Positions 6,032-23,963 of a stretch of DNA of 64,000 nucleotides are shown piece after piece. The position numbers and the translations under genes are program-made. Location of the stretch: the NCBI RefSeq assembly GCF_007004725.1, contig NZ_ML660163.1, positions 204,915 through 268,914 on the forward strand, given 5' to 3'. This DNA comes from Aliikangiella coralliicola. GTDB taxonomy: Bacteria > Pseudomonadota > Gammaproteobacteria > Enterobacterales > Kangiellaceae. The notes under the pieces were generated by a model. It had not been told where the DNA came from. It saw only the letters and a program-made list of their open reading frames with translations, and did no database searches. The number at the start of each line of letters is the position of its first letter. The stretch's first letter is position 1.

Positions 6032-6033
6032 TT

Positions 6034-7121: not shown

Positions 7122-8414
7122 ATGGCTAGACATAAACTCTTTCCCATTCCATTGCTAGGGCAAGGTACGGCAGAGGTGGAATCTCTGCCATCCTACCTTT
7201 TGCGTAGTGCATACAGTCATGGGACTTCAATTGGAATACTTACAATGGTTATCCAAAAGTTAGTTGCAGATAAAAATCCGCCTAATTATCGAGCTCTAGG
7301 CGGAAGTTCTGGCGTAGAGACACTGTCTCGGGTTAATCGATACACATTGCTATTACGTGATTATCTCACAAGTCTTACTGGTCAGGACATGAGTTGTAAA
7401 CCATTAGATTTTCTGCACTGTATGGCTTATGGGATTAGTTCGGAGATTAGCGGACTTCGTTGGTGCCCGGAATGCTTGGAAGAAATGGAGCGTTTAAGAT
7501 CGCCCATATACTTTAAGCAATTGTGGCATATGACAACTATCCACAATTGTCCTATACATCGAACACCATTGATTAGAAATTGCTGGCGTTGTGACAGTCA
7601 TCAAAACTCATTTAAAGCAGCTCACCCTACCGGTAGGTGTGTCGAATGTGGAGCGACTTTATTTCGAAGAAAAGTACCTTTAACACAAAACGACGTCAGA
7701 CCATCTTGGCAAGGTATATCTTTTGATTTGATCGAAATATTTGAAAGAGCAGCGCGACTTGATAACACCGAGTATAGTTATGATAAAACGATACGTTTTG
7801 TTAGAAGTCTAATTAGTCCTGTGGCCATTGAGTTTCATGAGCGCGATATAATCGGTCGAAAATTGAATCATTTGTTTTGTGAGTTCAACCATAAACATCC
7901 TATGTTTTGGCGATTAACTAGTCTACGTCGACTGGCTTACTTTTTAAATATGTCACTATTCGATTTACTTTCAGCAAATAAAAATGGGTATCGATTAAGT
8001 TTCCCAATTTCAGATATTAGCGAAATACCACCGCAGCTTAGGCCACGAAAAAAAGTTAAACATAATCACAAGAAAATTTATCAAAAATTGTTGTCTTTGC
8101 TTGATAAGCAGAAATATCCTCCTAGCTTGAAACAACTGGCTCGAATGACCAAAGTTTCAGTTGGATACCTAGAATATAGATTTCCTAGCCTAGTTCGAAA
8201 GGTAGTCGACGAACATCAGTCTTGTAAACATCACCAATATTTAGTGAGACGTTATCGTGCTCAAACTGCCGCTTTGAGATTTTTTATAGACGAGCGCTAT
8301 GCTTCTTACAATCAATCCCGTAAAGAGGCATATCGAGTGCTTAGCAAAGAGACTCGTTTGCCAAAATGGATGCTAAAAGACGCTATCCAAATCGCGTATA
8401 GAACCTTGAACTAG
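7122..8414 (+). CDS. tniQ: TniQ/TnsD-family target-site selector
   Basis: A 430-aa protein beginning with the TniQ signature (ESLPSYLLRSAYSHG near residues 20-35). Zinc-binding pairs follow: CPEC, CPIH, CWRC and CVEC between about residues 115 and 185. The basic C-terminal half has HTH-like segments (LKQLARMTKVSVGYLEYRF), as expected if it reads a DNA target. It is longer than the short TniQ proteins that serve CRISPR effectors and nearer to TnsD-like proteins that recognise a fixed attachment site. It is the only target selector in view and sits 8 bp after tnsC. The target it recognises is unknown. Confidence 0.82.
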   Translation: MARHKLFPIPLLGQGTAEVESLPSYLLRSAYSHGTSIGILTMVIQKLVADKNPPNYRALGGSSGVETLSRVNRYTLLLRDYLTSLTGQDMSCKPLDFLHCMAYGISSEISGLRWCPECLEEMERLRSPIYFKQLWHMTTIHNCPIHRTPLIRNCWRCDSHQNSFKAAHPTGRCVECGATLFRRKVPLTQNDVRPSWQGISFDLIEIFERAARLDNTEYSYDKTIRFVRSLISPVAIEFHERDIIGRKLNHLFCEFNHKHPMFWRLTSLRRLAYFLNMSLFDLLSANKNGYRLSFPISDISEIPPQLRPRKKVKHNHKKIYQKLLSLLDKQKYPPSLKQLARMTKVSVGYLEYRFPSLVRKVVDEHQSCKHHQYLVRRYRAQTAALRFFIDERYASYNQSRKEAYRVLSKETRLPKWMLKDAIQIAYRTLN

Positions 8415-8530
8415 ATCATCAAAATGTCTGATCATTTTAATATAATATGAAATTTTTTAACTTTATCTTTAATTTTTTCAGTTTATGGGGTTATGATTGG
8501 GTCTTATTAGGTATATAACGGAGCCCTGTC

Positions 8531-8743
8531 ATGATACGTTGCCATCTTGCTCGCCTGATGGGAGAGCGGAAAATGAAGATCTCCGACCTTTTGCGAGAAA
8601 CCGGTCTAAGCCGGAATACTGTCACTCTCATGTACAAAGAAACAGCGCAAAAATTTGACATTGAAGCATTGGACAAACTTTGCCGATTTTTCCAATGTGA
8701 AGTAGGCGATCTATTGGAGTTTTGTGATCACATAGAACATTGA
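8531..8743 (+). CDS. Small Xre/Cro-type regulator at the head of the defence operon
   Basis: A 70-aa protein consisting of one Xre-type HTH: LARLMGERKMKISDLLRETG, then the recognition turn LSRNTVTLMY, then FDIEALDKLCRFFQCEVGDLL, the classic fifth-helix signature. Such regulators commonly repress defence operons until infection. It lies 116 bp after tniQ, preceded by an AT-rich gap with a possible -10 element near 8512, and is followed after 19 bp by the 1109-aa gene. It is therefore the likely first gene of the defence operon. Confidence 0.75.
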   Translation: MIRCHLARLMGERKMKISDLLRETGLSRNTVTLMYKETAQKFDIEALDKLCRFFQCEVGDLLEFCDHIEH

Positions 8744-8762
8744 GAGAAAGGATGCAATTGGA

Positions 8763-11700
8763 ATGAAAGCAGCTGTCAAGACCGGCTACAAAGTTAACAC
8801 AACTAAACGACTGGAAGCTCTTAAGCAGAAGGAAATGTCTTGGGAGCCTGAATTCTGCACTTCTGAGTTTTATCATAATATCTCAAACTCAATACGGGTA
8901 CTTTCCCAACACGCCATTTCAGAACCATATTTGCTACGAGATTGGGTCTGGATAAATGCGCAATTTCGAATAGCTCACACCTCAGACGAAGATGTTGCAA
9001 GAACCTCCTGGGCATCGCTCAGTTCGTTTATTTCCCTGGTTCAGCAATTGGAAGGTGGAAACCAGGATATGCTCGTAGAGATATGTTGGTTAACTGACCG
9101 AACAGTGGAGTTGCTTCTTGGGAAACTTGGTTCCCAGGCAATCAATAAATTTATATCACCTGAAGAGCAAAGAAGAATTGATGATCTAATTATTGAGTTT
9201 GCTGAGTCAGATAAAGATGACTTGGTACAATTAAACACCTTTGCAAAAAAGGTATCTTCTGAGTTTTCTGCAATTCATCACGCAGCTTATTTTCCCTCTA
9301 TAGCCAATAAACTTTTAGCATTAAGTCAAGTGGCGCACGAATCCTCAGAGATGGGTTATTGGGCAAAAGCAGCTTTGCGATATGTATGTATTGAGGAGGA
9401 TGTAATAAATGATAACCAAGGATACGTAGGTTTCTTAGATGATATACATGTAGTTGAAAACATGTATAGTTTCGTATTTGGCGAGCTCCCTTGGAAACGA
9501 TTGATTGAGCAAGCCGCGGAGCAATGGCCCTTTATAACCCGCGCGTACTGGCTCGATGAAGACTCCAAGAATCATTTAACTCCATTGTTGAAAGTTGTCA
9601 TTTCATGTTGTCTCAATTCTTCTTTAGAACAAAATCAATCACGCACCATAATCTTGCCAGAAGTAGGACCTTGTGGTTTTCTAGCGGCGGCCACCTTTGT
9701 TTTAAAAGTTGAGGAATCAGAGAAAAAAAGAACCACACCTGAACCAGGCTCATATGCCTCATTCAGAGATGGGCATCTCCCTAGATATGTTCTGATGGAG
9801 TTACCATTTGAACAACCTGATGGTTCAGAGTTGCCAATGGTCAGACTAAGAGATGGTGGTAAAAGATCTATACCTCAAGAGAAAGCAATATTGCTAGAGC
9901 CTGTGGATGGTATCGCAATCCCCCTTGCAACGTCTAAACAGTTGGATCGATGGTTATCGATAATTGAGGAAGATAGTCAAACCGCAGTCCATAAATTCCA
10001 TAGGGCCGAATTGCAAACATCTGTTATTTTCGTAACCTGCCGATCAGATTTTTTCAGTTATCTTGAAACAATCCGCCCTTATGGCAGAAGGCTTGATGAA
10101 TTGGTTTCTGTTGAATACCGTAGCCGCGTTAATAGCTCTACTCTAGGTTCAGGAGCAATGAATGCAGAGCCAACTTTGATTGTATGTAGTAGCCTTGATG
10201 TTGCTGAAAGTTTACTTCGTGAAGAGGGAAAGCACACAAAACCTCAACACATGATTATTGATCGTGCTGTTGATCATATTGCTCTGAAAGCTCTGAAAGT
10301 GAGGTGTAAACAATATAACCCAAAAATGAAAATTCTAGTGCTCTCTCAAGTGAATACGCAGGTAGGATACTATCCAAAAAGCCACGAAGAATCTATTTGG
10401 CTAATTCGACCTGACGACGTCGACCCAATTCCAAAAGCATTAGATCCAATTTCAGTTTCTATTAAGGGTAAAGGGCCTCTTGCTAAATATGTCAAGAGGC
10501 AAAGCCGGGCCACAAATGTCAAGTCAACGACACACATTGTTGAGTTTGGAGAGCTGGAAAACTTCTATCAAGCTATTCAAAAAGTTAAACAACGAGCGTT
10601 AGAGGAAGACTCCTCTCTTTTGCCTTTCGCTATTAATTCGGAAACAGCATTAAAATATATTTCAACACACCCACCAGTCGGAAACAGTATCGCTGACGAA
10701 CGCTTGACTCTTGTGTTGACAAGTCTTTCACAGCATGCTGCTGCAATGGGGATGTATGATCAGGATCTTAAAAACTTGGCCTCAACTTCTAACGAGCTCA
10801 TTAAAGCTATCAGAATCAAGAATCCTAAAGCTCAGATACTGTTTGATCTTATAAAAAACTATAAAAGATGCCATATTGTTGTTGCGTCCAGAACTATTGC
10901 GGATTCACTTTCAAAGACATCATTCAACCTCAAACATGTCAATGTAAAGTTTATCTCGGTACATGATCTGGAGTCATTGGAGAGTATCGAGTCAATTCTG
11001 ATTCCTGGTTGGTTAGGGCGTAAGGAAATGTTGAAGTTGAAACTTGGAGGTTGGTCCAACATTCAATTGAACATGCTATATAGCTTTGAACACGACCGCT
11101 CATCAAAGCAAGCAAAAAAGTTAGAAAGCACATTTACTTATCTGGATAAAAAAACAAGAGAAAGCTGGAAAGCTTTTTCCATTAAAAATCCTGAAGCTGG
11201 CAACCCACCGGCGGATTCACAGAAAATTTTAAATTCCAGAGACGACAAGGATGTATGCGAACTTGAAAATGAGTATCTGGAAAGAGATGATTGGGTAGAG
11301 TCTGCTGTCCGTACGCACATAAACTCTTCATCTATAAACCAAAGTAGCCAAACTAGGGTTCTCGGACGGCTTATCTTTTTTAAAGATGGGCAACACTATG
11401 GAGTTTTCGCAGAAAATGCAAAACTCGTTTGTCTAAATGAAGTATTAGGAGGATCAGTAAATGACTCTAATTTCAGTGAATCTGAAGCTGATAAATTACT
11501 TTGGAAAAGTACAAAGTTCCTGGAAATAGGAGATGTATTGGCTTTTCCCGATACCCAAACGCTAGGTGATGTAATAGACGAATTGGCAGATGCTATTCTT
11601 GGCGACAAAGGGGCCATGAGAGAACAATCTGGCCTTTGGCGTAATGCCTTACGAAAGATTTATGAGGCAAGTGCTTGGGACCTCAAGAAGATGCAAAGGA

Positions 11701-12092
11701 AATTGTCGCAGCATGGTGTAGATAGGACTCGAGCTACTTTGGAGTCATGGTTGTTTTCTACAAAAACAGTGGCTCCCCAAAATCCATCACAAACTATTCC
11801 TAACATCTTGGCGTGTGCAGGCATTGATGATTCACACGACTTGGCAAAAAAAATTCTGAGACACGTAAACAGAGTTTACGCTGCTAGAAGAAAGGCCGGG
11901 CACCATTTAGTGGCCCAACTTTCCACTGCATCTATAAGTGGACTTGGCGACAACGCATTTATAGAAATTAATGGAAAGGAAATTCGCTATAGAGTTCTTT
12001 CCATATCTTCTGTCGATGAAGCAGCAAGATATGATGCTTCTATCTTGGGTGTGCATTCAATTCATGACGGTTTGCTGGAGGTAAAACAATGA
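8763..12092 (+). CDS. Large DISARM-associated protein in the DrmE position, with a DUF1232-like segment
   Basis: An 1109-aa protein with no Walker, nuclease or methyltransferase motif that I can find. Around residues 199-240 the segment YWAKAALRYV ... GYVGFLDDIHVVE resembles DUF1232 (YkvA), whose signature is an Ala-rich helix followed by a Gly-Tyr/Phe-LDD turn. The middle (residues 460-570: TLIVCSSLDVAESLL, QHMIIDRAVD, MKILVLSQV) looks like alternating beta/alpha units, possibly a degenerate NTPase fold. In class 2 DISARM the equivalent slot holds DrmE, a protein of unknown function; I assign it there by position and size, not by clear homology. AAGGA precedes the ATG, and the stop overlaps the next start by 4 bp (ATGA), so translation is coupled to the NERD-helicase. 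Confidence 0.5.
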   Translation: MKAAVKTGYKVNTTKRLEALKQKEMSWEPEFCTSEFYHNISNSIRVLSQHAISEPYLLRDWVWINAQFRIAHTSDEDVARTSWASLSSFISLVQQLEGGNQDMLVEICWLTDRTVELLLGKLGSQAINKFISPEEQRRIDDLIIEFAESDKDDLVQLNTFAKKVSSEFSAIHHAAYFPSIANKLLALSQVAHESSEMGYWAKAALRYVCIEEDVINDNQGYVGFLDDIHVVENMYSFVFGELPWKRLIEQAAEQWPFITRAYWLDEDSKNHLTPLLKVVISCCLNSSLEQNQSRTIILPEVGPCGFLAAATFVLKVEESEKKRTTPEPGSYASFRDGHLPRYVLMELPFEQPDGSELPMVRLRDGGKRSIPQEKAILLEPVDGIAIPLATSKQLDRWLSIIEEDSQTAVHKFHRAELQTSVIFVTCRSDFFSYLETIRPYGRRLDELVSVEYRSRVNSSTLGSGAMNAEPTLIVCSSLDVAESLLREEGKHTKPQHMIIDRAVDHIALKALKVRCKQYNPKMKILVLSQVNTQVGYYPKSHEESIWLIRPDDVDPIPKALDPISVSIKGKGPLAKYVKRQSRATNVKSTTHIVEFGELENFYQAIQKVKQRALEEDSSLLPFAINSETALKYISTHPPVGNSIADERLTLVLTSLSQHAAAMGMYDQDLKNLASTSNELIKAIRIKNPKAQILFDLIKNYKRCHIVVASRTIADSLSKTSFNLKHVNVKFISVHDLESLESIESILIPGWLGRKEMLKLKLGGWSNIQLNMLYSFEHDRSSKQAKKLESTFTYLDKKTRESWKAFSIKNPEAGNPPADSQKILNSRDDKDVCELENEYLERDDWVESAVRTHINSSSINQSSQTRVLGRLIFFKDGQHYGVFAENAKLVCLNEVLGGSVNDSNFSESEADKLLWKSTKFLEIGDVLAFPDTQTLGDVIDELADAILGDKGAMREQSGLWRNALRKIYEASAWDLKKMQRKLSQHGVDRTRATLESWLFSTKTVAPQNPSQTIPNILACAGIDDSHDLAKKILRHVNRVYAARRKAGHHLVAQLSTASISGLGDNAFIEINGKEIRYRVLSISSVDEAARYDASILGVHSIHDGLLEVKQ

Positions 12093-13807
12093 GCAGAATG
12101 CTACCTTTCCGGCCACATTGTGGCATAACCAAATCAGAACAGTGGGTATTCGACCAACTCGCAGAAGCACCTTCACTGGATAACTACGTAATACTTCATT
12201 CGCTTGGATTAGCGCGTCATAAGAGAAAGTCCTATGCGGAATGTGACTTTGTAATTATAGGTCCACTTGGCGTCTACTGTCTTGAAGTTAAAGGCGGTCA
12301 TGTGAGTAGACAAGATGGAGTGTGGACGATTGGCTGGCCCGGAAGATCTTATACTTCTATGGAGGGACCATTCAAACAAGCTCAATCTGCAAGAGGCGCG
12401 CTATTACAAGAGGCTCGTATTAGACTTGGAAAAGATTTAATCAAACGTGTTCCCTTTGGTTGGGGAGTTATGTTTCCTGACGTGCAATTTGTCGAGAGAG
12501 ATCCGGAATGGGATCAGGAATGTATTTTTGATGAAAGCAACAAAGAGCTACCTATTTCCACATATTTGAAAAGACTTGCTGAGTATACTCTGGCGCATGA
12601 ATCAAGCAGAGGAAGAACATACCAAACTCCATTATCGCGGCGCGAAATAGATACTATTACCAATAGTTTTCGCGCTGACTTTGATTTGGTGCCAGGAATC
12701 ACGAGCTTGATAAGAGAAAGCCACAGCGAAATGCTTTCGCTTTCTGAAGAGCAATACTCTTCCTTGGAGACTATCCTGCATTCTGGAAATCCCAGGGTAA
12801 TCTGCGAAGGTACTGCAGGCACAGGTAAAACAGTTCTAGCAGCAGAAGCGGCACGTAGACTTGCTCAAGATGGAATGCGTGTCTTGTTTCTCTGTTTCAA
12901 TCGCAATCTTGCATGGCAGCTAAAACATCAGGACTTTGCAAAATATAAGAGTATTACGTTACATACGATTTGGGGATTATTATACCAGTTGGTCAGCAAA
13001 AACTATCCAGATCAAATTCAGGGGGAAGGAAGTTTTAATAAAGTTTTAGAGATGGCAGAGGAAGCAGCGATTGACTCAATAGAGACTGGTGAACTTATTC
13101 CTTATGATGTATTGATTATCGATGAGGCCCAGGATGTATTAGCCCCTGAAGTTATGAACGCATTGGACTGGTTTCTGAATGAAGGTATTTCTAGTGGTAG
13201 ATGGGTAATGTTCTTGGATACAGCTATACAAGCGAGTGTGTATAACAAGCTTGAAGGTAGAATACACTCCCACCTATCAACTAAAGCAATGAACTTAAAG
13301 CTAAGCATTAATATGAGAAATCCAGTGACTATTGCTAAAGAGGCCGCAATGATTACAGGAACTCCCCCTCCTAAGTGCAGGCGTCAATTCATTGCTCCAG
13401 TTGATTATCGAACAATTCATGGGATGAAAACTGTTAGCAAAATATCAACGTCGTTGATAACCCAGTTAATTTCAGAAGGGGCAAATCCAAACGATATTGT
13501 TTTGTTATCTTTCCGTTCACCAGAGGAAGCATTTTTTAAAAATGGCTATGCATCTATCGGAAAAAAAGTACACGTACTTGATGGCAAACAAGATAGAATC
13601 AATCGAGACGCTATTCCAGCAGCCTCTATTCCCGCATTTAAAGGACTTGAATCAGAGATAATTATTGTGGGTGACTTACCTGAAGGGGAAATGACAGAAT
13701 GGCAACTTGCAAATCTATATGTTGCACTTACTCGGGCACGAACTGCTGTTTATGTTATTTGTAGTCAGGGATATGTAAACCGCCGTATTGATTTGCTTGA
13801 AGGATAA
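12089..13807 (+). CDS. NERD nuclease domain fused to a UvrD/Rep-type helicase
   Basis: A 572-aa protein. Residues 20-150 carry a NERD domain of the PD-(D/E)XK fold: AECDFVIIGPLGVYCLEVKG provides the D and E-x-K. A superfamily 1 helicase follows: Walker A EGTAGTGKTVLAAE near 240, Walker B LIIDEAQDV near 344, and motif VI LYVALTRARTAV near 545. NERD-helicase fusions occur in several defence contexts, and nuclease plus 3'-5' unwinding suggests DNA degradation. It is not a core DISARM subunit, and its insertion between the DrmE-like gene and drmA is what makes this locus unusual. Start overlaps the upstream stop by 4 bp; 3 bp separate it from drmA. Confidence 0.82.
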   Translation: MSRMLPFRPHCGITKSEQWVFDQLAEAPSLDNYVILHSLGLARHKRKSYAECDFVIIGPLGVYCLEVKGGHVSRQDGVWTIGWPGRSYTSMEGPFKQAQSARGALLQEARIRLGKDLIKRVPFGWGVMFPDVQFVERDPEWDQECIFDESNKELPISTYLKRLAEYTLAHESSRGRTYQTPLSRREIDTITNSFRADFDLVPGITSLIRESHSEMLSLSEEQYSSLETILHSGNPRVICEGTAGTGKTVLAAEAARRLAQDGMRVLFLCFNRNLAWQLKHQDFAKYKSITLHTIWGLLYQLVSKNYPDQIQGEGSFNKVLEMAEEAAIDSIETGELIPYDVLIIDEAQDVLAPEVMNALDWFLNEGISSGRWVMFLDTAIQASVYNKLEGRIHSHLSTKAMNLKLSINMRNPVTIAKEAAMITGTPPPKCRRQFIAPVDYRTIHGMKTVSKISTSLITQLISEGANPNDIVLLSFRSPEEAFFKNGYASIGKKVHVLDGKQDRINRDAIPAASIPAFKGLESEIIIVGDLPEGEMTEWQLANLYVALTRARTAVYVICSQGYVNRRIDLLEG

Positions 13808-13810
13808 AAT

Positions 13811-16800
13811 ATGGATACAAATTTGGAACATTCAAAATATCGTAGCAAGCTGTTGAAATTCATGACAGATGAATTGTTCGGCCCAGAATACACAGACGAT
13901 TCTAAAAGACAGCATGAGCTACTTGAAGTGTCACCGCTACAACTCTATTCTACAGGAGTTTTGTTTCCTCAAAAATCAATTAATAACCAGTTAGAAGACG
14001 ATGCGACAAGAGAGAAAGAAGAAACGCCAACCGAGGACTCATCATTAGATGACACTCCTTTTGTAGAGATCAAAGGTGGTGGAAAGCAAACGCAAGACGC
14101 AACTTTACTGGAAGAGCAACCACTCAATCTGGCAAATGAATTCAACCCATCCGCCGCAGGAATTACAGTTAAAGTTTCATCTGATACAAAACTCTTTGTA
14201 GACGTAAATGCAGGTCGATACAAGACAGAAAGAATAGAGAAAAAACATCCAAAGGCTGGACAGGAAAAAGCCGATGGTTCTCTTTTTCCTGATACTCGTG
14301 AAGAAATAAACTATAGGAGGGTACCAATTCAGGATCAAGTAGAAATAGATTTAGCTAAATATCCAGTAAATAGTATATTTCTACACAACATACAAAATAC
14401 TGATGGCATGATGAAACTGCACGCTCGAATCAGGCCTGAAGAAGGAAATAAGACATCTGTCTCGCTAGCTCTAGTGAATCAACACAAAGGAGGAGTTGAC
14501 GCCCCTCCCGCATTCAACGCATCGTTCTTTCAAGTTAGGTTATCTGTAAGCGAGGTCACCGGTGCGTCAGTTTTCCATCCGATAGATCGCGCAGGCGGTG
14601 TTTCGCAAGATGAAGAACTTGCTGCGCTAGATATGCTTTATAGAGAAAAGCGGTCTTTTGCATTGGGTCATGGATGCGGAGCAGATTGGACGACCGACAC
14701 TGATGACAAGACAGTCGCAAAACGGGTATGGTCTGATTTTCTTCCCAAGTGTGACATAAAACCAGTAAAACCAAGAGAAGAAGCACTTTTTACCGACCAG
14801 TTTAATCTGTCAATGAGAAGCCTTTCAGAATATGGTTCGTCTGATAACAGCATTATTGAAAATCTGGGGCTTCTTGTTAAAGATTATGAAAGATGGATTA
14901 TTTCCCAGCAAAATTATCAAAAAGTTAGATTGCCAGAAGAACATCAGAAATCAGCTTCGACAAATTTGGAAAAATGTTGGAAATGCCTAAGGCGAATTAA
15001 AGAAGGCATTGCTTATCTTGCCTCAAATAATGACGCGATGAAGGCATTTAAACTGGCGAATCGAGCAATGTTAATTCAACAAGCCAGAACAAGATTCCAA
15101 AAGGACATCGACCCGGATACTAATTACTCAGATTTTCCTGATGATTATAATATCCCTGCTGAAAAAGAGCCTGCATGGAGACCGTTTCAGTTGGCTTTCA
15201 TGCTGATGAATATAACTTGTTGTGCTGAAGATGAACATCCTAACAGAGAGCTAGTTGACTTGATCTGGTTTCCCACTGGAGGTGGTAAAACAGAAGCCTA
15301 CCTTGGATTGGCCGCATTTTGTATATGTTTGCGCCGGTTAAATGATACTGAAGATAAGGGAGTCGCAGTGCTAATGCGATATACCCTTAGGCTGTTGACG
15401 GCTCAGCAGTTTCAACGAGCAGCAGCTCTAATTACCGCTTTGGAATCACTAAGGTTAGACAAATATTTAGGAGCTGAGCTTGGTGAGGCTCCGATTTCAA
15501 TAGGATTGTGGGTAGGTATGGGCCTATCGCCTAACCGTCGTAAAGATGCCATCAAAAGGCTAAACGAGTTAACCGCTAATCCTGGAGCTCAAAATCCCTT
15601 TCAGTTATTGCGCTGCCCTTGGTGTCGTACCTCTCTCGATAAAAGCGGAAAGCTTGGATATCAAAAGGAACCTTTAACTGTAGGTGGCGAAGATACTGTT
15701 ATATTTCGGTGCAGCAATCCAGGATGCAGATGGCATTCCACTTCAAGCCAACTGCCAGTTGTGGTTATTGATGATGACATTTATGACAACCCTCCTACTC
15801 TGCTACTTGGTACAGTAGACAAGTTCGCTCAATTGGCTTGGGTTCCGGAGACAGGTCGCATCTTCGGTACCAACGATTTTAGTGCCCCTCCAAACCTGAT
15901 TATTCAAGATGAACTTCATTTGATATCAGGTCCGTTAGGAACAATCGTGGGCCTATATGAAACTGTAATTGATAAGCTGTGCTCCAGAAACGGGAAAACT
16001 CCAAAAATTGTTGCTTCTACAGCGACTATCCGTCAATCCGCGAAACAGTGTAAAGGACTGTATGCCAGGGACCGTTTTGAGTTTCCGCCACAAGGGCTTG
16101 ATGCCGGGGATTCCTATTTTGCATACGAAGATCATGAAGCTCCCGGCAGGTTATATGTAGGAGTTTTCGGATCGGCAGTAAAATCTCACGCTACAGCGCA
16201 GGTTCGTGTAATCTCACCCTTGCTGCAGGCTGTGATGCCAGAACTTCCTGAAACAGAGCCTCCTGTGGTTTCTGATAAGTATGCTACTCTTCTATGGTAT
16301 TTTAATAGCCTGCGTGAACTAGGGCATGCAGTTACAATGTCTACAGGTGATATTCCTGAGCACCTATTTAATTTGTGTAAAAGAAACAATATTGCAAAGG
16401 ATTTTTCTCGGAAGATCTATATCACTCAAGAGCTCACAAGTAGAAGAACAGCTGAAGAAATCCCCAAAATACTTGATGAATTGAATCGAAAGTGGCCTCG
16501 CTCCGAAGAGCAGGGCTGGCCAGTCGATATGTTATTAGCAACGAATATGATTTCTGTTGGGGTTGATGTTGCAAGGCTTGGTCTAATGGTGGTTGCAGGT
16601 CAACCTAAGTCGACCGCAGAATATATTCAAGCTACCAGTAGAGTTGGACGGGGATTCCCTGGAATGGTTGTTACTGTATATAACCCTGCTCGCAGTAGAG
16701 ATAGGTCACACTATGAACAGTTCGTTGGATACCATCAAGCAATTTACCGTTATGTAGAACCAACAAGTGTCACTCCATTTTCTGCTCCTGCGAGATCCAG

Positions 16801-17179
16801 AGGATTTGCAGGAATGGTGATTGCTTTGGCAAGACTATTGACAGGGATGAAGGTGCCAGAAGATATATCCAAGCATCCTGATGCACAAGAAGAGTTGATT
16901 GAATTAATTTTGAAGAGGGTTCAGCAGATTGATAAAGAAGAATATGATGATTCACGTAGGGAACTCTTAAAAATAATTAAGAATTGGAAAGAATACCTAC
17001 CACCGGAGTTTGGTCAAATGGCGGGCAGTCCAACCACTCAAACTTTGATGCACCCTTTTGGCCGGAAGATAAACGAAGATTTTGAAGGAAAGGCATTCCC
17101 AGTCCTTACAAGCATGCGCAGCGTAGATGTCACTTGCGCAGCTCGAGTTCTTCAAATTTATCCGGATTCAGGAGAATAA
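13811..17179 (+). CDS. drmA: DISARM helicase DrmA
   Basis: An 1122-aa superfamily 2 helicase. Walker A is in WFPTGGGKTEAYLGLA (about residue 490), the motif II box is DELH in IIQDELHLISG (about 700), and the C-terminal helicase lobe has TNMISVGVDVARLG then QATSRVGRG (910-947). A four-cysteine insertion CPWC ... CSNPGC lies near 602-643. In DISARM, DrmA with DrmB forms the core that binds and translocates on incoming DNA; the published DrmAB work shows DNA 5' ends trigger it. The N-terminal 450 residues are family-typical with low motif content. It sits 3 bp from its neighbours on both sides, in the canonical drmA-drmB order. Confidence 0.85.
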   Translation: MDTNLEHSKYRSKLLKFMTDELFGPEYTDDSKRQHELLEVSPLQLYSTGVLFPQKSINNQLEDDATREKEETPTEDSSLDDTPFVEIKGGGKQTQDATLLEEQPLNLANEFNPSAAGITVKVSSDTKLFVDVNAGRYKTERIEKKHPKAGQEKADGSLFPDTREEINYRRVPIQDQVEIDLAKYPVNSIFLHNIQNTDGMMKLHARIRPEEGNKTSVSLALVNQHKGGVDAPPAFNASFFQVRLSVSEVTGASVFHPIDRAGGVSQDEELAALDMLYREKRSFALGHGCGADWTTDTDDKTVAKRVWSDFLPKCDIKPVKPREEALFTDQFNLSMRSLSEYGSSDNSIIENLGLLVKDYERWIISQQNYQKVRLPEEHQKSASTNLEKCWKCLRRIKEGIAYLASNNDAMKAFKLANRAMLIQQARTRFQKDIDPDTNYSDFPDDYNIPAEKEPAWRPFQLAFMLMNITCCAEDEHPNRELVDLIWFPTGGGKTEAYLGLAAFCICLRRLNDTEDKGVAVLMRYTLRLLTAQQFQRAAALITALESLRLDKYLGAELGEAPISIGLWVGMGLSPNRRKDAIKRLNELTANPGAQNPFQLLRCPWCRTSLDKSGKLGYQKEPLTVGGEDTVIFRCSNPGCRWHSTSSQLPVVVIDDDIYDNPPTLLLGTVDKFAQLAWVPETGRIFGTNDFSAPPNLIIQDELHLISGPLGTIVGLYETVIDKLCSRNGKTPKIVASTATIRQSAKQCKGLYARDRFEFPPQGLDAGDSYFAYEDHEAPGRLYVGVFGSAVKSHATAQVRVISPLLQAVMPELPETEPPVVSDKYATLLWYFNSLRELGHAVTMSTGDIPEHLFNLCKRNNIAKDFSRKIYITQELTSRRTAEEIPKILDELNRKWPRSEEQGWPVDMLLATNMISVGVDVARLGLMVVAGQPKSTAEYIQATSRVGRGFPGMVVTVYNPARSRDRSHYEQFVGYHQAIYRYVEPTSVTPFSAPARSRGFAGMVIALARLLTGMKVPEDISKHPDAQEELIELILKRVQQIDKEEYDDSRRELLKIIKNWKEYLPPEFGQMAGSPTTQTLMHPFGRKINEDFEGKAFPVLTSMRSVDVTCAARVLQIYPDSGE

Positions 17180-17182
17180 TTT

Positions 17183-19117
17183 GTGACAAGACCAGAATTC
17201 AGAAGAAGTCAGGGGATCGTTCCATTTGGAGTTGGTGCAATTATTGATTTTCCTGATGAGTCATTAATGGCAGCCGGACTTGATGCTTGGCTTATTGAAA
17301 TGCAGCCTGAAATAGCCGTGTATCTGAAAGAGGCTACATATCTATCAGAGCCGCGATTACAAACAAGACTATCATACGAACTTGGAAAAGAAATAAGCGG
17401 GCTGTATATGCCACCTGAAGCTCCAGAATACCCTCCGCACAATTTCGCAGGATTTGGGGGACCCATTACTACTGGAGATACTCCCTTTGTACGTTTTCCT
17501 AATTGGCATTTCTGTCCACGATGCAGGTCAATGCAATATGTCCCATGGAATAGCCCAAGTAATGCAAAAAATGAGGATTTGAGATGTAAGAATTCCAAAT
17601 TCAGACGTCAAGCCAAAGCAAATACACAACCCTGTAGTGCGCTTCCTTTAAAAAGGCGTCCAAAGTTAGTACCTGTTCGTTTTATAGTTGCATGTACTAA
17701 CGGCCATATTTCTGACTTTCCTTGGAGTAAGTGGGCACACGGCGCTCGAAAAGAATGTGGCCACGAACCAGGTACACTTTTTCTTGTTTCCACTGGTGGT
17801 GCAGGCCTAGAAGGAATTAAAGTAGAGTGCTCAAAATGTGGTTCTTTCAGAACGATGAAAGGTGCTTTTAATCCCAACACCTTTATGCAAGTAACAGGCT
17901 TGTCCTGTAGCGGAGCCCGACCTTGGCTTGGGCCGCAAGCACACGAGTTGAATTGCCAGGAATCGGCGCAAGTCGTACAGAGGGGAGCATCAAATGTTTA
18001 TTTCCCACATGTGGTTAGTTCGATTTTGATTCCTCCGTATTCTGAAACAATACACAGAATTCTGGATAACCAAAGTATATGGAGTGAAATATGTGATGTT
18101 CTAGACAATATACGAGTGAATGGACAACCTGTTATTTCGGCAAATATGTTTACATCCAAAGCAAATAAGTATGGAATTGAGCCTGAGGTTCTTGCTGCAG
18201 CAATAAAGGAAAAATATCTTCACCCAGAAGCTTGGTCTGGTACTGCGGACCAAACAGAGTCAGCTTATCGATTTACCGAGCGTCAAGCCTTTCTTGGCCC
18301 TCGTCCTGCTCCAAACGAACGTCATGAGTTTGATATTAGAAAAACCCAGATTTCTGATTATTCAAGAGAGGTTAAGGATTACTTTGATGAAGTTGTGCTT
18401 ATCCCCCGACTTAGAGAAACGAGAGCCTTAGTCGGATTTTCAAGAGTAACCCCTTTTGATGGTGATCAAAGTCGATTGTCCAAACTGTCTAAAAAAGAGC
18501 TTTCTTGGTTACCTGCAGTTTCATCTACCGGTGAAGGAATTTATTTGGAATTGAGTGAAGAAAAGCTTTGTGCTTGGGAGTCGGCTCATGCAGACATTTC
18601 GGCGAGAATAGATCTGATTAACAGGAATTGGACGAAGGTATCTACAGAACGAGGAACTTCATTTGATCTTTATTGTTCCAGGGTTCTCTTGGCTCACACT
18701 CTTTCTCATTTGATTATCCGGCAACTAAGTTTTGATTGTGGGTATGACAGCTCCACGCTTAAAGAAAGGCTATATGTATCTAATGATGCAGAGCAAAAGA
18801 TGTGTGGAATTCTAATTTATACAGCTGGCGGAGACTCTGAAGGCAGTCTGGGTGGGTTAGTAAGGCAAGGTGAGACCGGAAATCTCGAATCTACAATTCT
18901 CGCAGCAGTCAGAAATGCACAGTTTTGTGCATCCGATCCGCTATGTTTAGACAGCGAAGGCCAAGGGTATTATGGAATGAATCTCGCCGCTTGCCACGCT
19001 TGTACTCTATTGCCGGAAACCGCATGTGAGTTGGGAAACAGAGTTCTGGATCGAGCGATGGTTATAGGATCTGAAACTAATCCACTAGGCGGATATTTCT
19101 CGGACCTTACACTTTAA
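17183..19117 (+). CDS. drmB: DISARM DUF1998 protein DrmB
   Basis: A 644-aa protein starting with GTG. The N-terminus RRSQGIVPFGVGAIIDFP is the recognisable DrmB opening. A zinc pair CPRC (near residue 112) and others (CSKC) occur in the middle. The C-terminal DUF1998 domain (about 495-610) includes LAHTLSHLIIRQLSFDCGY, GILIYTAGGDSEGSLGGLV and the cysteine-rich C-H-A-C-x3-P-E-T-A-C box. DrmB partners DrmA and is thought to gate the helicase on DNA. It follows drmA by 3 bp and precedes the methyltransferase by 23 bp. Confidence 0.87.
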   Translation: MTRPEFRRSQGIVPFGVGAIIDFPDESLMAAGLDAWLIEMQPEIAVYLKEATYLSEPRLQTRLSYELGKEISGLYMPPEAPEYPPHNFAGFGGPITTGDTPFVRFPNWHFCPRCRSMQYVPWNSPSNAKNEDLRCKNSKFRRQAKANTQPCSALPLKRRPKLVPVRFIVACTNGHISDFPWSKWAHGARKECGHEPGTLFLVSTGGAGLEGIKVECSKCGSFRTMKGAFNPNTFMQVTGLSCSGARPWLGPQAHELNCQESAQVVQRGASNVYFPHVVSSILIPPYSETIHRILDNQSIWSEICDVLDNIRVNGQPVISANMFTSKANKYGIEPEVLAAAIKEKYLHPEAWSGTADQTESAYRFTERQAFLGPRPAPNERHEFDIRKTQISDYSREVKDYFDEVVLIPRLRETRALVGFSRVTPFDGDQSRLSKLSKKELSWLPAVSSTGEGIYLELSEEKLCAWESAHADISARIDLINRNWTKVSTERGTSFDLYCSRVLLAHTLSHLIIRQLSFDCGYDSSTLKERLYVSNDAEQKMCGILIYTAGGDSEGSLGGLVRQGETGNLESTILAAVRNAQFCASDPLCLDSEGQGYYGMNLAACHACTLLPETACELGNRVLDRAMVIGSETNPLGGYFSDLTL

Positions 19118-19140
19118 CCTGAATTTAAATGGTATAAAAA

Positions 19141-20124
19141 ATGCTAACATTTGTTGATTTATTCTGCGGAGGAGGATTTGGTGCTAGAGGTGCCGTTAAG
19201 GCAGGTGCCACTCCTATCCTCGCCATCGATGCCTGGGAGTTGGCAGCAGATACTTATAAGAGCAATTTTCCTGGAGCTGAGGTTATTTGCTCTCCGATAG
19301 AAAATTTAAAACCCAAAATACTGGCAAAGCGTCATTTGCCTGATGTTTTGCTGACTTCGCCTGAATGTACTTCACATTCAATTGCACGCGGCGCCAAACC
19401 GAAGTGTGAAAAAAGCAGGGAAACAGCAATAGGAATAATCCCATGGATCGAAGCTATGAATCCTCGATGGTTAATTGTTGAAAATGTTAATCGGATGAAA
19501 CAGTGGGAACGTCACAACGAGTTGATTACAACAATCGAATCTTATGGCTATCAAGTTAATGACTTGCTTTTAAATGCCGCCGACTTTGGGACGCCTCAAT
19601 CGAGAAAACGAATGTTTTTAGTGTGTGATCGGGAAGGTTCGGTAATAACTAAAAAAGATCTCTATAAACTTCATCGCCGGAGCGAAAAATCGGCGAGTTC
19701 AATAATAGATTGGTCTGGAAAATATAAAAGTACGCCGCTGTACAAAGAAGGAAGAGCTCAGGCAACTATTGAACGGGCGGAGAGGGCTATCGATAAGTTA
19801 GGCACCAAAAAAGACTTTATTATTGTTTATTATGGTTCTGATTATGCTGGTGGCTGGCAGTCATTGGAGTCTCCATTGCGAACAATTACAACCTTAGATC
19901 GTTTTGGACTTGTAACTTGGCAGGAAGAGACTCCCTACTTGAGAATGCTTCAACCCCCTGAATTAATGAAGGCAATGGGTGCAGGCTCTAAGCACCTTCT
20001 TACACACGGAAATAGACGAGATAAAGTGAAGCTTTGTGGCAATGGTGTATGTTCACCGGTTATGGAGATGATCTTCAAGAAAATACATCAAATTCAATTA
20101 GGTGAAATGGAGCTTGCTTCTTAA
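19141..20124 (+). CDS. drmMII: C5-cytosine DNA methyltransferase, DrmMII type
   Basis: A 327-aa enzyme that would transfer a methyl group from S-adenosylmethionine to cytosine C5. Motif I is FVDLFCGGGGFGAR-like (FVDLFCGGGFGARG, residues 4-17). The catalytic cysteine is C76 in TSPECTSHS, where the usual PPC reads PEC. Motif VI is ENV (114-116), motif VIII QSRKR (153-157), and motif X NGVCSPVM lies near the end. In class 2 DISARM this methylase marks host DNA as self. The target-recognition region between motifs VIII and IX is short (about 90 residues), so the site cannot be read from sequence. The stop at 20124 directly abuts the next ATG. Confidence 0.85.
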   Translation: MLTFVDLFCGGGFGARGAVKAGATPILAIDAWELAADTYKSNFPGAEVICSPIENLKPKILAKRHLPDVLLTSPECTSHSIARGAKPKCEKSRETAIGIIPWIEAMNPRWLIVENVNRMKQWERHNELITTIESYGYQVNDLLLNAADFGTPQSRKRMFLVCDREGSVITKKDLYKLHRRSEKSASSIIDWSGKYKSTPLYKEGRAQATIERAERAIDKLGTKKDFIIVYYGSDYAGGWQSLESPLRTITTLDRFGLVTWQEETPYLRMLQPPELMKAMGAGSKHLLTHGNRRDKVKLCGNGVCSPVMEMIFKKIHQIQLGEMELAS

Positions 20125-21291
20125 ATGGATTTGTCTAGTTTGGATCTAGTGGTAGATCGTATTTACAAAGGTTCTAGAAATGGAAATACATCTGATGATC
20201 CTTTACCAAGTCTGCTTGGAGTAGATAATGGTGCAGGTTTTAGGCATTTAGGAAAACGCCCCGATATTGAAACTCTAAAATTACTAGTATTGAAATCAAC
20301 TTTTAAAGACCCTGACTGGCCTGATAAATTAAATACTGAATCAGGTCTATTTACTTATTATGGAGATAATAAATCGATTAGAGAAATCCATGATACACCT
20401 AGGCAAGGAAACTTAATATTACGCAATTTATTTGAGGCTAGACACCAAACAAGATCCTTAGAACACTTTCCACCGATATTGTTGTTTGGTGGAACAGGAG
20501 AATATTGGGATGTAAGATTTCTTGGTTTGGCAGTACCCGGAGCTCAACGATTGGGACCAGATGATGATCTGACTGCAATTTGGAGATCTACGGGAGCAGA
20601 AAATCTCCGTTTTCAAAATTACCGAGCCATTTTTACAGTGCTGGATGTTCCAGTTGTAAAGAGAAAATGGATCGATGATATTAAAAATGGTAATGCAGCG
20701 AATTCGAAATATGCCCCAACAGTTTGGTTAGACTGGGTAAAAAATCGAAAATACTCTCCATTGTATTCCCCCCATACAATTGAAATACGAAATAAAGAAC
20801 AGCAACTTCCCAAAGATATTCAGGGCTTGAAAATTCTGTCTCTAGTTTATGAAAAGTATAAAGATGATCCTATTGGTTTTGAGGCTTGTGCTGTCGAGAT
20901 TGCGCGGCTTACTATGCCGGATATTGGTGATTGTGAAATTACCAGGCCTTGGCGTGATGGAGGTAGAGATGCGATTGGCTATTATCGTATAGGAACAGGC
21001 CCCGGTTCAATTGAAGTTGAGTTTGCTCTCGAAGCTAAATGTTATAAATCTAATTCAGGTGTCGGAGTAAAAGAATTGTCTAGATTACTCTCTCGTTTAC
21101 GTCACCGACAGTTTGGTATTCTTGTAACAACCTCATACGTAAGCTCTCAAGCCTATAGGGAATTAAAAGAAGATGGCCACCCAGTAGTTCTTATTACCGC
21201 TATTGATATAGTAAACATATTAATAAAAAAGATCGGTTCCGCTGAGTCTATTTGTCGCTGGTTAGACCGCATTGGAATAGCAACAGATTAG
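20125..21291 (+). CDS. Two-domain restriction endonuclease: AspBHI-like reader plus Mrr-type nuclease
   Basis: A 388-aa protein. The C-terminal domain (about 235-388) is an Mrr-type PD-(D/E)XK nuclease: E253 in GFEACAVEIA, D282 in RDGGRDAIGY and E303-A-K305 in FALEAKCYKS. The N-terminal domain (DRIYKGSRNG, GVDNGAGFRHLG, GLFTYYGDNK, RQGNLILRNLF) resembles the AspBHI N-terminal/SRA-like module that reads 5-methylcytosine in modification-dependent enzymes. If right, this would be a methyl-directed nuclease abutting a cytosine methylase with zero spacing. The reader assignment is tentative; the nuclease fold is firm. It ends the plus-strand operon and occupies the place where DrmC (a PLD nuclease) would be expected. 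Confidence 0.7.
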   Translation: MDLSSLDLVVDRIYKGSRNGNTSDDPLPSLLGVDNGAGFRHLGKRPDIETLKLLVLKSTFKDPDWPDKLNTESGLFTYYGDNKSIREIHDTPRQGNLILRNLFEARHQTRSLEHFPPILLFGGTGEYWDVRFLGLAVPGAQRLGPDDDLTAIWRSTGAENLRFQNYRAIFTVLDVPVVKRKWIDDIKNGNAANSKYAPTVWLDWVKNRKYSPLYSPHTIEIRNKEQQLPKDIQGLKILSLVYEKYKDDPIGFEACAVEIARLTMPDIGDCEITRPWRDGGRDAIGYYRIGTGPGSIEVEFALEAKCYKSNSGVGVKELSRLLSRLRHRQFGILVTTSYVSSQAYRELKEDGHPVVLITAIDIVNILIKKIGSAESICRWLDRIGIATD

Positions 21292-21393
21292 TTAATTATA
21301 TACGGATTCATCGTCAAGAATTCTATTTGCAAACTTTTCATTTCTAGATTTTTATAACTACATTTTGTACTATTATCGGTTCCTCGGCTTTAG

Positions 21394-23325
21394 CTAAAAT
21401 ATTTGTGTCTCGTATGCAATTTCAAATCCAACCCCATGTTCAAGAATTTGGATTGTTCCTCGATGGGTTGATTTTAAAAACTGATATGGCTTTTTTAAAG
21501 CGGAGATTTTACTTTCCAGTGAAGTTAATGAAACACTTGAATGCTGGTAAGTATAGTCGCTATTAGGACCATTTGGTTCCCAAGCTTTTATTTCTTCATT
21601 ACATAAAATATTCAAGAAAGTAGTTGCATCCATAAACCATACGTCATGGCCGTTTGGGGAGGTAAACTGAGCACCAGAAAAATAGTGTGCATTTGAAACT
21701 ATAAAGGGAATAATCTCGAGTTCTTTTGCCGAGTATCTAGTCCGCGCTTCAAATTCCGTTGGTCTTTTTTCTATAAACTCTATCCTTTTGTCCAGTTGTT
21801 CAAGAGCCTTCGATATATGATTATCAGCGAACCTGTAGGCGTCTTCACGTTCTTCAGGAGGGATAGAAGCTTTTGCCTCATATAAAATTAGATATTTTCC
21901 GCCTAGAGTGAATAATCCGTCAATCTCTGGGATATTTTTCTTCTGACTTCTTTTTACTCTATTAACTTTATAACCACCTTCTTCGAGCTTTTTCTTCAAA
22001 TAATCTTCAAAAAGATGACCTTTTCCCACACCTTTTGAATAGTCTAAAGAAATCTCCTCTCTACTTAAAATCCTATCTATCAGGTTTTCAATTGGATGGT
22101 CTTTAGCATATGTAGGTATAATATAATAGAGGGTACCAATTTTAATAATTGGAAGCCATGTTGAAGGAAAAGTAAGACCTCGTTCGACTTTTAAAGAAAA
22201 AAGTTCAAGTAAATAACTTTTGTTTTTTGGAATCTTTAGAGTCGACAACAACTTGTTTTTAGTCCCACTAAATATTTTTGCGCCCCCACTCTTAACAGTT
22301 CTCTTGTTCTCTTTTTGAATTTTTTCACAGAAGTTAAAGATGCATTTATAAATATCAACTAAATCTCGAATAAAAAACCTTTTCTCGTTAAAAGTAAACT
22401 GATTATCTATTCCTCCATAAACAACTGAGAGCAATACAATGCTCTTTTTTAAAGAAACTTCTTTTTGAAAATCATTTCCTTTTGCAAAATCAATCTTTAA
22501 TAATTTTCCATTGTCTGTACTGCTTACAAACCCAGATTTTTTAGCGATTTCAAATATAGCGTCATTAGTTTCTTCTCTATTTATGTAGTGCTTGTAATTT
22601 AAATCTCTATAAATTTCGTTTTTTCGCCAAGTATGGTTTGTCAGCTCTATAAAGAAGTCTAGCTTATCGAATCCAATAGACTTCATATTCTCCGTAATTC
22701 CATATTTTTTATAAAAAGAATGACTGGTTACAATGTTGTAGTCTCCTCTCAGAACCTCTGATATTTGTGTTGATATCGTTTTAAAATAACCAGCAGAACT
22801 AATTACTCTTTTGCAAATTGAGTTGCGTTTAGAAATATTCTTTTTTCTTCCTTTTAGTGGCTCTACGTTTCTGATAGCCAAGCAGATCCACGGGATTGTT
22901 GATATCAAACTGCCAAACATTGAGGAAGACACATTCTCTGGAACTTCTTGATTGTCATAGCCTATATTACAATACGCCAATCTGTTTAATTGCCACTCCA
23001 GATAGGAAAATAAGTCTTCAACGCTTGTCCGGCGTACGTTTTCATATAACATCAGCTTTTGTTTTCTTTTATGGAAATCAGAATGTTCATAGAAACCTTT
23101 TACATCACCTCTTGTTTCCAAAAGGCCTATTTCCTGCATTGCAAATAGTAAGAGATGAGTATTCTTTATCCGTTCAAAACTCTTAGAGATTGCATAAAAA
23201 AGTTCATTTTCTAACCCCAGTTTAGTAAGCCCTTGTACAAAAAGATGGTGATCTAAATCTTCTTCCTGAAGTTTTATACTTATTTCCCTGGCTTTTTTTA
23301 TTCCGGATTTGTTTAATATAATCAC
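21394..23325 (-). CDS. PD-(D/E)XK nuclease domain protein, unknown family, beside vsr
   Basis: A 643-aa protein with a GTG start one base after the vsr stop, so the two are co-transcribed. The first 430 residues are Lys/Phe-rich and have no motif I recognise. Residues 435-500 form a nuclease core: GHLFEDYLKKKL with E440, then PEIDGLF with D469, then YLILYEAKAS with E483-A-K485. This resembles NERD/Mrr-like endonucleases. It converges on the methylase-endonuclease operon across a 102-bp gap. Base composition is more AT-rich than the flanking drm genes, suggesting separate acquisition. A restriction partner of the cytosine methylase is possible; function not known. Confidence 0.6.
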   Translation of the reverse strand: MIILNKSGIKKAREISIKLQEEDLDHHLFVQGLTKLGLENELFYAISKSFERIKNTHLLLFAMQEIGLLETRGDVKGFYEHSDFHKRKQKLMLYENVRRTSVEDLFSYLEWQLNRLAYCNIGYDNQEVPENVSSSMFGSLISTIPWICLAIRNVEPLKGRKKNISKRNSICKRVISSAGYFKTISTQISEVLRGDYNIVTSHSFYKKYGITENMKSIGFDKLDFFIELTNHTWRKNEIYRDLNYKHYINREETNDAIFEIAKKSGFVSSTDNGKLLKIDFAKGNDFQKEVSLKKSIVLLSVVYGGIDNQFTFNEKRFFIRDLVDIYKCIFNFCEKIQKENKRTVKSGGAKIFSGTKNKLLSTLKIPKNKSYLLELFSLKVERGLTFPSTWLPIIKIGTLYYIIPTYAKDHPIENLIDRILSREEISLDYSKGVGKGHLFEDYLKKKLEEGGYKVNRVKRSQKKNIPEIDGLFTLGGKYLILYEAKASIPPEEREDAYRFADNHISKALEQLDKRIEFIEKRPTEFEARTRYSAKELEIIPFIVSNAHYFSGAQFTSPNGHDVWFMDATTFLNILCNEEIKAWEPNGPNSDYTYQHSSVSLTSLESKISALKKPYQFLKSTHRGTIQILEHGVGFEIAYETQIF

Positions 23326-23326
23326 A

Positions 23327-23746
23327 CTATGTATGTTTCCCCCTATTGGTCAAAGCTAGAGCAATTTGTTGTGTACAGTTTTGTACTGTATCCCTAATTT
23401 CATGTTCCCAAAATCGCAATACTAGCCACCCCATGGAGGACAACAATGTTTCGATTTTTCTATCTCTTTCAACATTACCATTGATTTTATTTTCCCAAAA
23501 TGAAGTACGGGTTTTTGGTAGTTGAAAGTGTTTAGGACATTTGTGCCAAAAGCACCCATCAATGAAAATTGCAACTTTTAACGATGGATAGATTATATCT
23601 GGCTTTCCGGGAAGTTTATTCTTAATCCTATATCGGAGTCCCATGCTCCAGAGCGCTTTTCGGAGAAGCAATTCTGGATTTGTGTTTTTGTTACGGATTC
23701 GGGACATGCAGTACGACCGCTGTTTTTTGGAAAGAACATCTGTCAT
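23327..23746 (-). CDS. vsr: Very short patch repair endonuclease Vsr
   Basis: A 139-aa protein with the Vsr signature throughout: KKQRSYCMSRIRNKNTNPEL at the start, then GKPDIIYPSLKVAIFIDGCF, which carries the catalytic Asp, then WHKCPKHFQLPKT with zinc ligands, and WLVLRFWEHEI near the end. Vsr nicks beside T:G mismatches that arise when 5-methylcytosine deaminates, so it normally accompanies C5 methylases. Here the methylase is 3.2 kb away on the other strand. TAGGGAATGAA precedes the ATG. Length is normal for the family (about 135-155 aa). Confidence 0.9.
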   Translation of the reverse strand: MTDVLSKKQRSYCMSRIRNKNTNPELLLRKALWSMGLRYRIKNKLPGKPDIIYPSLKVAIFIDGCFWHKCPKHFQLPKTRTSFWENKINGNVERDRKIETLLSSMGWLVLRFWEHEIRDTVQNCTQQIALALTNRGKHT

Positions 23747-23892
23747 TTCATTCCCTACCGATAGAATAATGGGGAAGGATTAATTATGCATAAGGATTAC
23801 AGCTTGGTCAAAAGACGAACAGGCAATAATTAGTCGAAGGCAGGAACAGCCAGTTCGCCCCAATGTATCTGGCGGCCATTTTGGGTTCCCTA

Positions 23893-23914
23893 TGCGACCA
23901 AAGTGTGGCCAAAG
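23893..23914 (+). repeat. Tandem 11-bp repeat next to the tRNA 3' end
   Basis: TGCGACCAAAG (23893-23903) is followed directly by TGTGGCCAAAG (23904-23914), 9 of 11 bases identical. It lies 50 bp from the tRNA 3' end within a stretch more GC-rich than the island genes. Such repeats next to a tRNA fit arm-type sites of a tyrosine recombinase or binding sites at a transposon end; no integrase gene is in the window. Confidence 0.4.
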
Positions 23915-23963
23915 CGGACAAACTTAGGTATTAATAACATATTTTTGGGGAATCTTGCAAAAA

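Follow-up and report, generated by a model that had tools for sequence, protein, structure and literature searches.

A DISARM-like operon with a NERD-UvrD helicase and no recognised DrmC, on a probable Tn7-like transposon of Aliikangiella coralliicola

The DNA analysed here, referred to as the window, is a stretch of 64,000 nt from Aliikangiella coralliicola (NZ_ML660163.1, positions 204,915-268,914 of the forward strand; its contig is called C4 below), and positions are given relative to it. It harbours an operon resembling the defence island system associated with restriction-modification (DISARM), in which a protein joining a NERD nuclease domain to a UvrD-type helicase is encoded between a DrmE-family gene and drmA. 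The original prediction had described seven plus-strand genes at 8531-21291 with spacings of 19, -4, 3, 3, 23 and 0 bp, and these were borne out (Table 1); as two of the genes overlap by 4 nt and the others are spaced 0-23 bp apart, all seven likely form one transcription unit. The extent of the block was corrected, as a gene for a 643-aa protein and vsr, located downstream on the opposite strand, remain with it in its closest relative, the locus L014 of a gammaproteobacterial metagenome-assembled genome. The window DrmA aligned with the solved DrmA 7s9v at 528 bits and, when the operon proteins were scanned, matched BrxHI at 9.7 bits only. The possibility that the genome carries DISARM twice was rejected, since DrmA exceeded its cut-off at one place only.

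Table 1. Genes and features of the DISARM-like block and of the element that carries it (window positions)
Feature	Position	Strand	Basis
TnsB-like	3626-6031	+	rve Pfam over cut-off
TniB/TnsC-like	6019-7113	+	TniB Pfam over cut-off
TniQ	7122-8414	+	TniQ Pfam over cut-off
Xre/HTH_26 regulator, 70 aa, opening the operon	8531-8743	+	HTH_26 75 bits; kept in L014
DrmE-family protein, 1109 aa	8763-12092	+	DrmE_fam NF038316 140 bits, cut-off 80
NERD nuclease domain + UvrD-type helicase, 572 aa	12089-13807	+	NERD PF08378 41 bits; PADLOC RTasNERD-Hel 119 bits
DrmA (short form), YprA-family superfamily 2 helicase, 1122 aa	13811-17179	+	DISARM_DrmAS NF038325 998 bits, cut-off 950
DrmB, MZB/DUF1998-type, 644 aa	17183-19117	+	DrmB_fam NF038324 474 bits, cut-off 240; PF09369 MZB
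DrmMII-like C5 cytosine methyltransferase, 327 aa	19141-20124	+	PF00145 126 bits; PADLOC DrmMII 256 bits
AspBHI-like 5-methylcytosine-dependent endonuclease (SRA-like reader + Mrr-type nuclease), 388 aa	20125-21291	+	AspBHI N-terminal domain + Mrr_cat; 371 bits to 4oc8
643-aa protein, PD-(D/E)XK-like motif (EIDG...YEAK)	21394-23325	-	Motif spotted by eye in translation
Vsr very-short-patch mismatch endonuclease	23327-23746	-	PF03852 98.5 bits
Probable right transposon end, next to tRNA-Met 23964-24040 (-)	23871-23942		Conserved with L014; end motif repeated at left end

Class 2 DISARM consists of drmMII, drmE, drmA, drmB and drmC. It was observed that the window holds the DISARM core, with DrmA and DrmB adjacent and both over their cut-offs, together with the DNA methyltransferase linked to that core, encoded just past DrmB. 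The methylase matched PADLOC DrmMII, the model for the class 2 methylase, and the DrmE-family protein exceeded the DrmE_fam cut-off, but the canonical DISARM_DrmE model (NF038323) was unmatched at an E-value of 0.1 and PADLOC DrmE reached 17 bits. The Nostoc DrmD and DrmMI queries, which represent the class 1 genes, gave no match in the window. The predicted absence of DrmC was confirmed: no DrmC match was found in the window, and no DrmC appears to lie nearby, since the six PLDc_2 matches of the genome are all on contigs C1-C3 and none on C4. As the phospholipase D (PLD) nuclease of class 2 was found neither in the window nor on contig C4, the system would, on its gene content, be DISARM-like without being a class 1 or a canonical class 2 member. 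In two canonical class 2 loci used for comparison, L133 and L134, the order is DrmE-DrmA-DrmB-DrmC-methylase; neither has NERD, and their DrmE is over the canonical cut-off. What is shared with class 2 is thus a DrmE-family protein, DrmA, DrmB and a C5 methylase in a single operon, whereas the window differs in having no DrmC, a NERD-UvrD gene between DrmE and DrmA, and a DrmE that belongs only to the wider DrmE_fam.

The recurrence of this arrangement was surveyed by scanning one genome per species with an alignment of six DrmA proteins and keeping the best 80 of at least 585 candidates, whose open reading frames were searched with profiles grown from the window genes and from a reference Nostoc DrmC. 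NERD, UvrD, DrmE and DrmC genes were counted on the same strand within 6.5 kb of DrmA, and C5 methylase, Vsr and AspBHI-like genes on either strand with a start within 12 kb. A NERD helicase was present in the operon at 41/80 loci, covering 14 of the 18 phyla of the set, to which Actinomycetota contribute a large share (35 loci, 10 with NERD). DrmE-family matches were found at 32 loci, 11 of them short (about 420-560 aa) and weak (31-111 bits) and the remaining 21 scoring at least 461, and DrmE and NERD occurred together at 23. The commonest order among NERD loci was DrmE-NERD-DrmA-DrmB (18 loci, plus two with AspBHI in line); the NERD gene stood inside the DrmE-DrmA interval at 20 of the 80 loci, and of the 31 NERD genes lying up to 3 kb upstream of DrmA, 30 were separated from it by at most 50 nt, overlaps included. 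A recognised DrmC was found at none of the 80 loci, using a profile with a single Nostoc seed and six full-length matches, and a scan of the loci for H-x-K-x4-D gave additional matches, of which, on inspection by eye, only those at L036 (490 aa) and L043 (479 aa) resembled PLD proteins, neither being a DrmC match. C5 methylase was counted at 49 loci, Vsr at 31 and AspBHI-like genes at 3. The expected co-occurrence around DrmA/DrmB was borne out for NERD but not for the AspBHI-like gene, and the proposal that NERD and an Mrr-type nuclease replace DrmC was supported only for the former, which is a recurrent operon member without DrmC, and not for the latter as a gene that defines the subtype.

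Other samples were also examined. DrmE_fam was detected in 3 of 398 genomes from the phylum to which the window belongs, the window included, and all three loci read DrmE-NERD-DrmA-DrmB; among 149 related genomes, DrmE was found only in the window's own, and a plasmid tblastn search with DrmE gave no match. Loci on viral contigs (n = 17) included three with NERD and five with DrmC, and plasmid loci (n = 14) six and one, respectively. A less similarity-biased sample was drawn from the DrmA-model matches in 15/398 genomes of the window's phylum and 18/398 of the phylum of L064, sets in which the genomes of the window and of L064 are themselves counted. Among its 34 loci (31 fetched, L135, L136 and the window), NERD was found at 8, DrmC at 10, both at none and neither at 16. 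The DrmC calls at L153-L155 score only 24-41 bits, yet have the HKD motif, and L164, L170 and L171, whose contigs have the same lengths as those of L043, L064 and L040 in the earlier set, seem to repeat these loci. A Fisher test of NERD against DrmC (0 with both, 56 with NERD only, 18 with DrmC only, 70 with neither) gave p = 1.2e-4, which is a rough guide, as the table was partly hand-added, L133 and L134 had been picked for their canonical DrmE, and relatedness was uncorrected.

The active sites of the NERD-UvrD protein appeared to be intact. Alignment of 49 of 51 NERD-domain proteins (two were omitted for length) showed that five NERD-domain residues, E17, D53, E66, K68 and Q97, which by analogy with the superfamily would be catalytic, are invariant in 49/49, in keeping with the acidic-ExK active site of PD-(D/E)XK nucleases. 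Walker A G244-G246-K247 and Walker B D345-E346 were equally invariant, and Walker A T248 was found in 48. The aligned proteins had been picked by a NERD profile, which favours conserved domains without forcing each catalytic residue. Near full-length matches were also obtained with two PADLOC models, the defence-associated reverse transcriptase (DRT) component RTasNERD-Hel (119 bits) and C3a187 (56 bits). Unlike those NERD helicases, that of the window is partnered by DrmA/DrmB, and the 16 window proteins scanned with PADLOC included no reverse transcriptase, save a chance-level RT_VI match on TniQ (E 0.007).

The DrmE-family protein was modelled with AlphaFold from 19 sequences, with a predicted local distance difference test score of 75.9 and a predicted template modelling (TM) score of 0.71. 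The best solved Foldseek matches were superfamily 2 (SF2) helicases, namely RIG-I-like helicases, Hef (1wp9, E 3.8e-6) and XPF. The TM score by target was 0.41 for Hef and the score by query was low, so the likeness to SF2 helicases holds at the domain level only. No Walker A motif was matched in the window DrmE, and among the 19 rows only L017 had one near the region and L018 one far away. DrmE, whose C-terminal region is conserved, is thus predicted from this model to have a degenerate and dead fold of the SF2-helicase type. In XPF, the helicase part is a dead-helicase adaptor, and DrmE may play a comparable role.

Altogether, these findings suggest that the locus, which rides on a Tn7-like transposon, probably encodes an anti-phage system of DISARM type with affinity to class 2, in which a NERD-UvrD helicase-nuclease takes the place of DrmC as the nuclease of the operon. 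In a FastTree of 108 DrmA proteins (midpoint root, local Shimodaira-Hasegawa support; many rows of unusual composition), the window groups with L014 and next with L015 and L016, all of which read DrmE-NERD-DrmA-DrmB, and next with the NERD-less L017, L022 and L028 (support 95). The enclosing 40-row set (support 99) comprised 30 loci with NERD upstream, one with NERD downstream, six with DrmE only, one with UvrD only, two with none of these and none with DrmC, which speaks for this interpretation. Several observations weigh against it. Twelve changes are needed to explain the NERD-upstream label on this tree, and at least 9 of them fall on well-supported branches, so that the arrangement has been gained or lost repeatedly. 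L017, L022 and L028, the nearest sisters, read DrmE-DrmA-DrmB and have neither a NERD gene nor DrmC, which implies that neither nuclease is strictly needed; close relatives lacking the extra genes, which the original prediction had named as a result that would reduce the system to ordinary DISARM, thus exist in part. Sixteen of the 34 loci of the two-phylum sample also had neither nuclease, seven of these being short, truncated or DrmA fragments (L150, L156, L161, L162, L167, L174 and L175). A UvrD helicase without NERD was present at 38 of the 80 surveyed loci, some of them alongside a NERD one, which suggests that the helicase rather than the nuclease may be the conserved need; one or both of the two helicase types occurred at 69. 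DrmC is described, in the available part of one study, as non-essential for DISARM activity (PMC9142583), so that degradation may not need an operon nuclease at all. Finally, NERD helicases were also found beside DruE and TmtA, and the gene is thus not DISARM-specific.

The last point bears on the explanation that survives best beside a NERD-UvrD effector, in which DrmAB alone blocks phage DNA and the NERD helicase is an independent defence or repair gene co-travelling in the same islands. Nine plasmid records of NERD helicases were retained at ≥80% coverage; DrmA stood in the same gene run in five (L008-L011 were opened, and a second Rhizobium record was judged by its coordinates), DruE in two (L141, L142), TmtA in one (L143), and none of the three among the annotated neighbours of the ninth (L144). 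In the DruE and TmtA records, all from alphaproteobacterial plasmids, NERD-UvrD directly follows the DruE gene of Druantia or the TmtA gene. These neighbours, the sister loci that manage without NERD and the dispensability of DrmC are all consistent with a co-travelling gene. However, DruE is itself a YprA-family helicase according to the available text of a preprint (PMC12458937), which fits a partnership, and the NERD helicase is a partner shared among systems, accompanying a YprA-type helicase, DrmA or DruE, in 7/9 plasmid records. Moreover, the coupling is tight, with the DrmE/NERD overlap in the window and short NERD-DrmA gaps elsewhere, and both the placement in the DrmE-DrmA interval and the spread over 14 phyla exceed what co-residence in islands would lead one to expect. 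This explanation is accordingly considered unlikely.

Another explanation would place the effector function in a restriction-modification-like cassette of the methylase, the AspBHI-like nuclease, Vsr and the 643-aa protein, with the DISARM core and NERD as a neighbouring system. The AspBHI-like protein aligned with AspBHI (4oc8) across almost its whole length, retaining the catalytic GGRD...ALEAK stretch, and has the features of the MspJI/AspBHI family, an SRA-like pocket for 5-methylcytosine (5mC) and an Mrr-type catalytic motif. Among the seven pocket residues of AspBHI listed in the available text of a structural study (PMC4499157), W69, D71, Y82, Y83 and D85 are kept, R87 is replaced by K, as in LpnPI, and N63 by T. 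The loop-2B residue T25, whose alanine mutant is dead in AspBHI according to the same partial source (PMC4499157), aligns with N, which speaks against identical behaviour. A 5mC reader is thus likely encoded 0 bp from a C5 methylase within a DISARM-like operon, which sets it apart from the family with which it shares full-length homology, the catalytic stretch and most of the pocket. Thirteen AspBHI-family loci were examined, of which the window, L014, L030, L032 and L157 (remote, 124 bits) came via DrmA. At 10 of them, a C5 methylase lay no more than about 1.3 kb from the AspBHI-family gene (the exceptions being L119, at 7 kb, L121, with none found, and L138, whose contig starts at the gene), and a Vsr match within about 2.6 kb also at 10 (exceptions L119, L120 and L122). 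Five of the ten loci with a nearby methylase (L120, L122, L137, L139 and L140) had no DISARM gene in the fetched stretch, which favours a cassette with a life of its own; L137, L139 and L140, from IMG/VR contigs, carry tight methylase(-)/AspBHI-like(+)/Vsr(-) triplets, which in their gene content represent a methylation module of its own. Nevertheless, the genes for the methylase and the AspBHI-like nuclease are collinear with DrmB both in the window and in L014, and DISARM loci are often near a C5 methylase (49/80) and seldom near an AspBHI-like gene (3/80), so that this alternative is very improbable. The same rarity, and the occurrence elsewhere without DISARM, led to the rejection of the AspBHI-like gene as the defining replacement of DrmC; judging by its neighbourhoods, it is accessory and part of a methylase-nuclease-Vsr group also found without DISARM. 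An ordinary class 2 DISARM minus drmC, plus passengers, would account for the DrmE-family protein, DrmA, DrmB and the DrmMII-like methylase, but hardly deserves credence, as the window DrmE misses the canonical model that L133 and L134 match and NERD recurs across a large set without drmC, not once.

Some additional observations concern these genes. At L157, from the phylum of Alkalihalobacillus, the order DrmE-DrmA-DrmB-methylase-Vsr is followed by the remote MspJI-family nuclease, without NERD and without DrmC. One neighbour at L120 is annotated as the MZA protein MzaE. The motif of the 643-aa protein is retained in L014, the sole relative seen, at 66% identity, and no relatives were found on viral contigs; its AlphaFold model (two sequences, predicted local distance difference test score 44) was discarded.

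As the flanking genes and ends indicate, the DISARM block travels as cargo on a Tn7-like transposon, about 26 kb long, beside tRNA-Met. The left end was placed near C4:203004, 1.9 kb before the window, by the repeated end motif, and a damaged tRNA-Met-like copy adjoins it. Three of the four genome matches to the end motif CCAWAGTKTGGCC fall at the two ends of the element, and the reversed control pattern gave two matches. An exact target duplication was rejected, since the left flank GTATT and the right flank TATTT are imperfect copies. L014 shared nucleotide identity of 75% over 8432-21212, 70% over 21393-23747 and 80% over 23871-24040, and ends in the same tRNA-Met, beyond which the genes differ (a sigma factor in L014, by eye). 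Similarity to L014 is far lower in the transposition genes (TnsB 612 of 1854 bits, TniQ 222 of 999), and the change comes abruptly just after tniQ. With its DNA 70-75% identical, the cargo seems therefore to have moved between related elements. Two further genes lie just within the left end of the element: one, at 3-1001 and running beyond the window, encodes a protein of about 337 aa with a weak Cas4 match (E 4e-4), and the other, at L132:13170-14900, an IS66-like transposase of 576 aa that matched RNase_H_2. An AbiEi-like (DUF6088) gene lies at 1574-2200, and a scan of neighbouring proteins showed no partner of AbiEii type.

If the NERD-UvrD protein is the effector, the system could operate as follows. 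DrmA-DrmB would load on and unwind incoming or replicating unmethylated phage DNA, as reported for Serratia DrmAB, with DrmE serving as an adaptor or DNA sensor. NERD-UvrD, whose active-site residues are intact, would be recruited and, driven by its own motor, would degrade the unwound DNA. From what is known of their families, the C5 methylase would mark host DNA as self, and Vsr would mend the T:G mismatches arising from 5mC deamination. The AspBHI-like nuclease may provide an accessory second arm, cutting modified cytosine outside the contexts of its own methylase, so that phages escaping DISARM by cytosine modification would be hit. The methylase and this nuclease must then be compatible in sequence context, and selection has been argued, in the accessible part of one paper, to make 5mC-dependent enzymes spare resident methylases (PMC3874153).

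Comparable pairings have been described in other systems. According to the available text of the preprint by Bell (PMC12458937), ARMADA type II combines a YprA helicase with ArmD, a helicase of the UvrD family, and protection was abolished by a Walker A mutation in ArmD but only partly lost with a Walker B mutation; the likeness to the window lies in a YprA-family helicase accompanied by a UvrD-family helicase with an N-terminal effector domain. TALON likewise pairs a YprA-like helicase with a NERD nuclease, but its NERD is not described in that text as a UvrD fusion, and NERD is named there for TALON and not for DISARM. No description of a NERD-bearing DISARM variant was found in the open-licence papers searched.

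More tentatively, these loci could represent a third broad DISARM class, in which the YprA-type helicase pair, with DrmE as a dead-helicase adaptor, recruits a self-propelled NERD-UvrD nuclease as effector. In the window, cytosine methylation would then be read in two opposite ways, the missing self mark leading to DISARM and modified cytosine in a foreign context to the AspBHI-like nuclease; if so, a phage would escape neither unmodified nor modified. Bravo et al., in the part of their paper available, regard DrmC as dispensable and often missing from annotated operons, and the mode of degradation as a mystery (PMC9142583). A large set of drmC-less loci with an intact-looking helicase-nuclease may thus offer a concrete handle on how DISARM destroys phage DNA, and would tie DISARM to Druantia and ARMADA by a common pattern, a YprA-family helicase together with a UvrD-family helicase.

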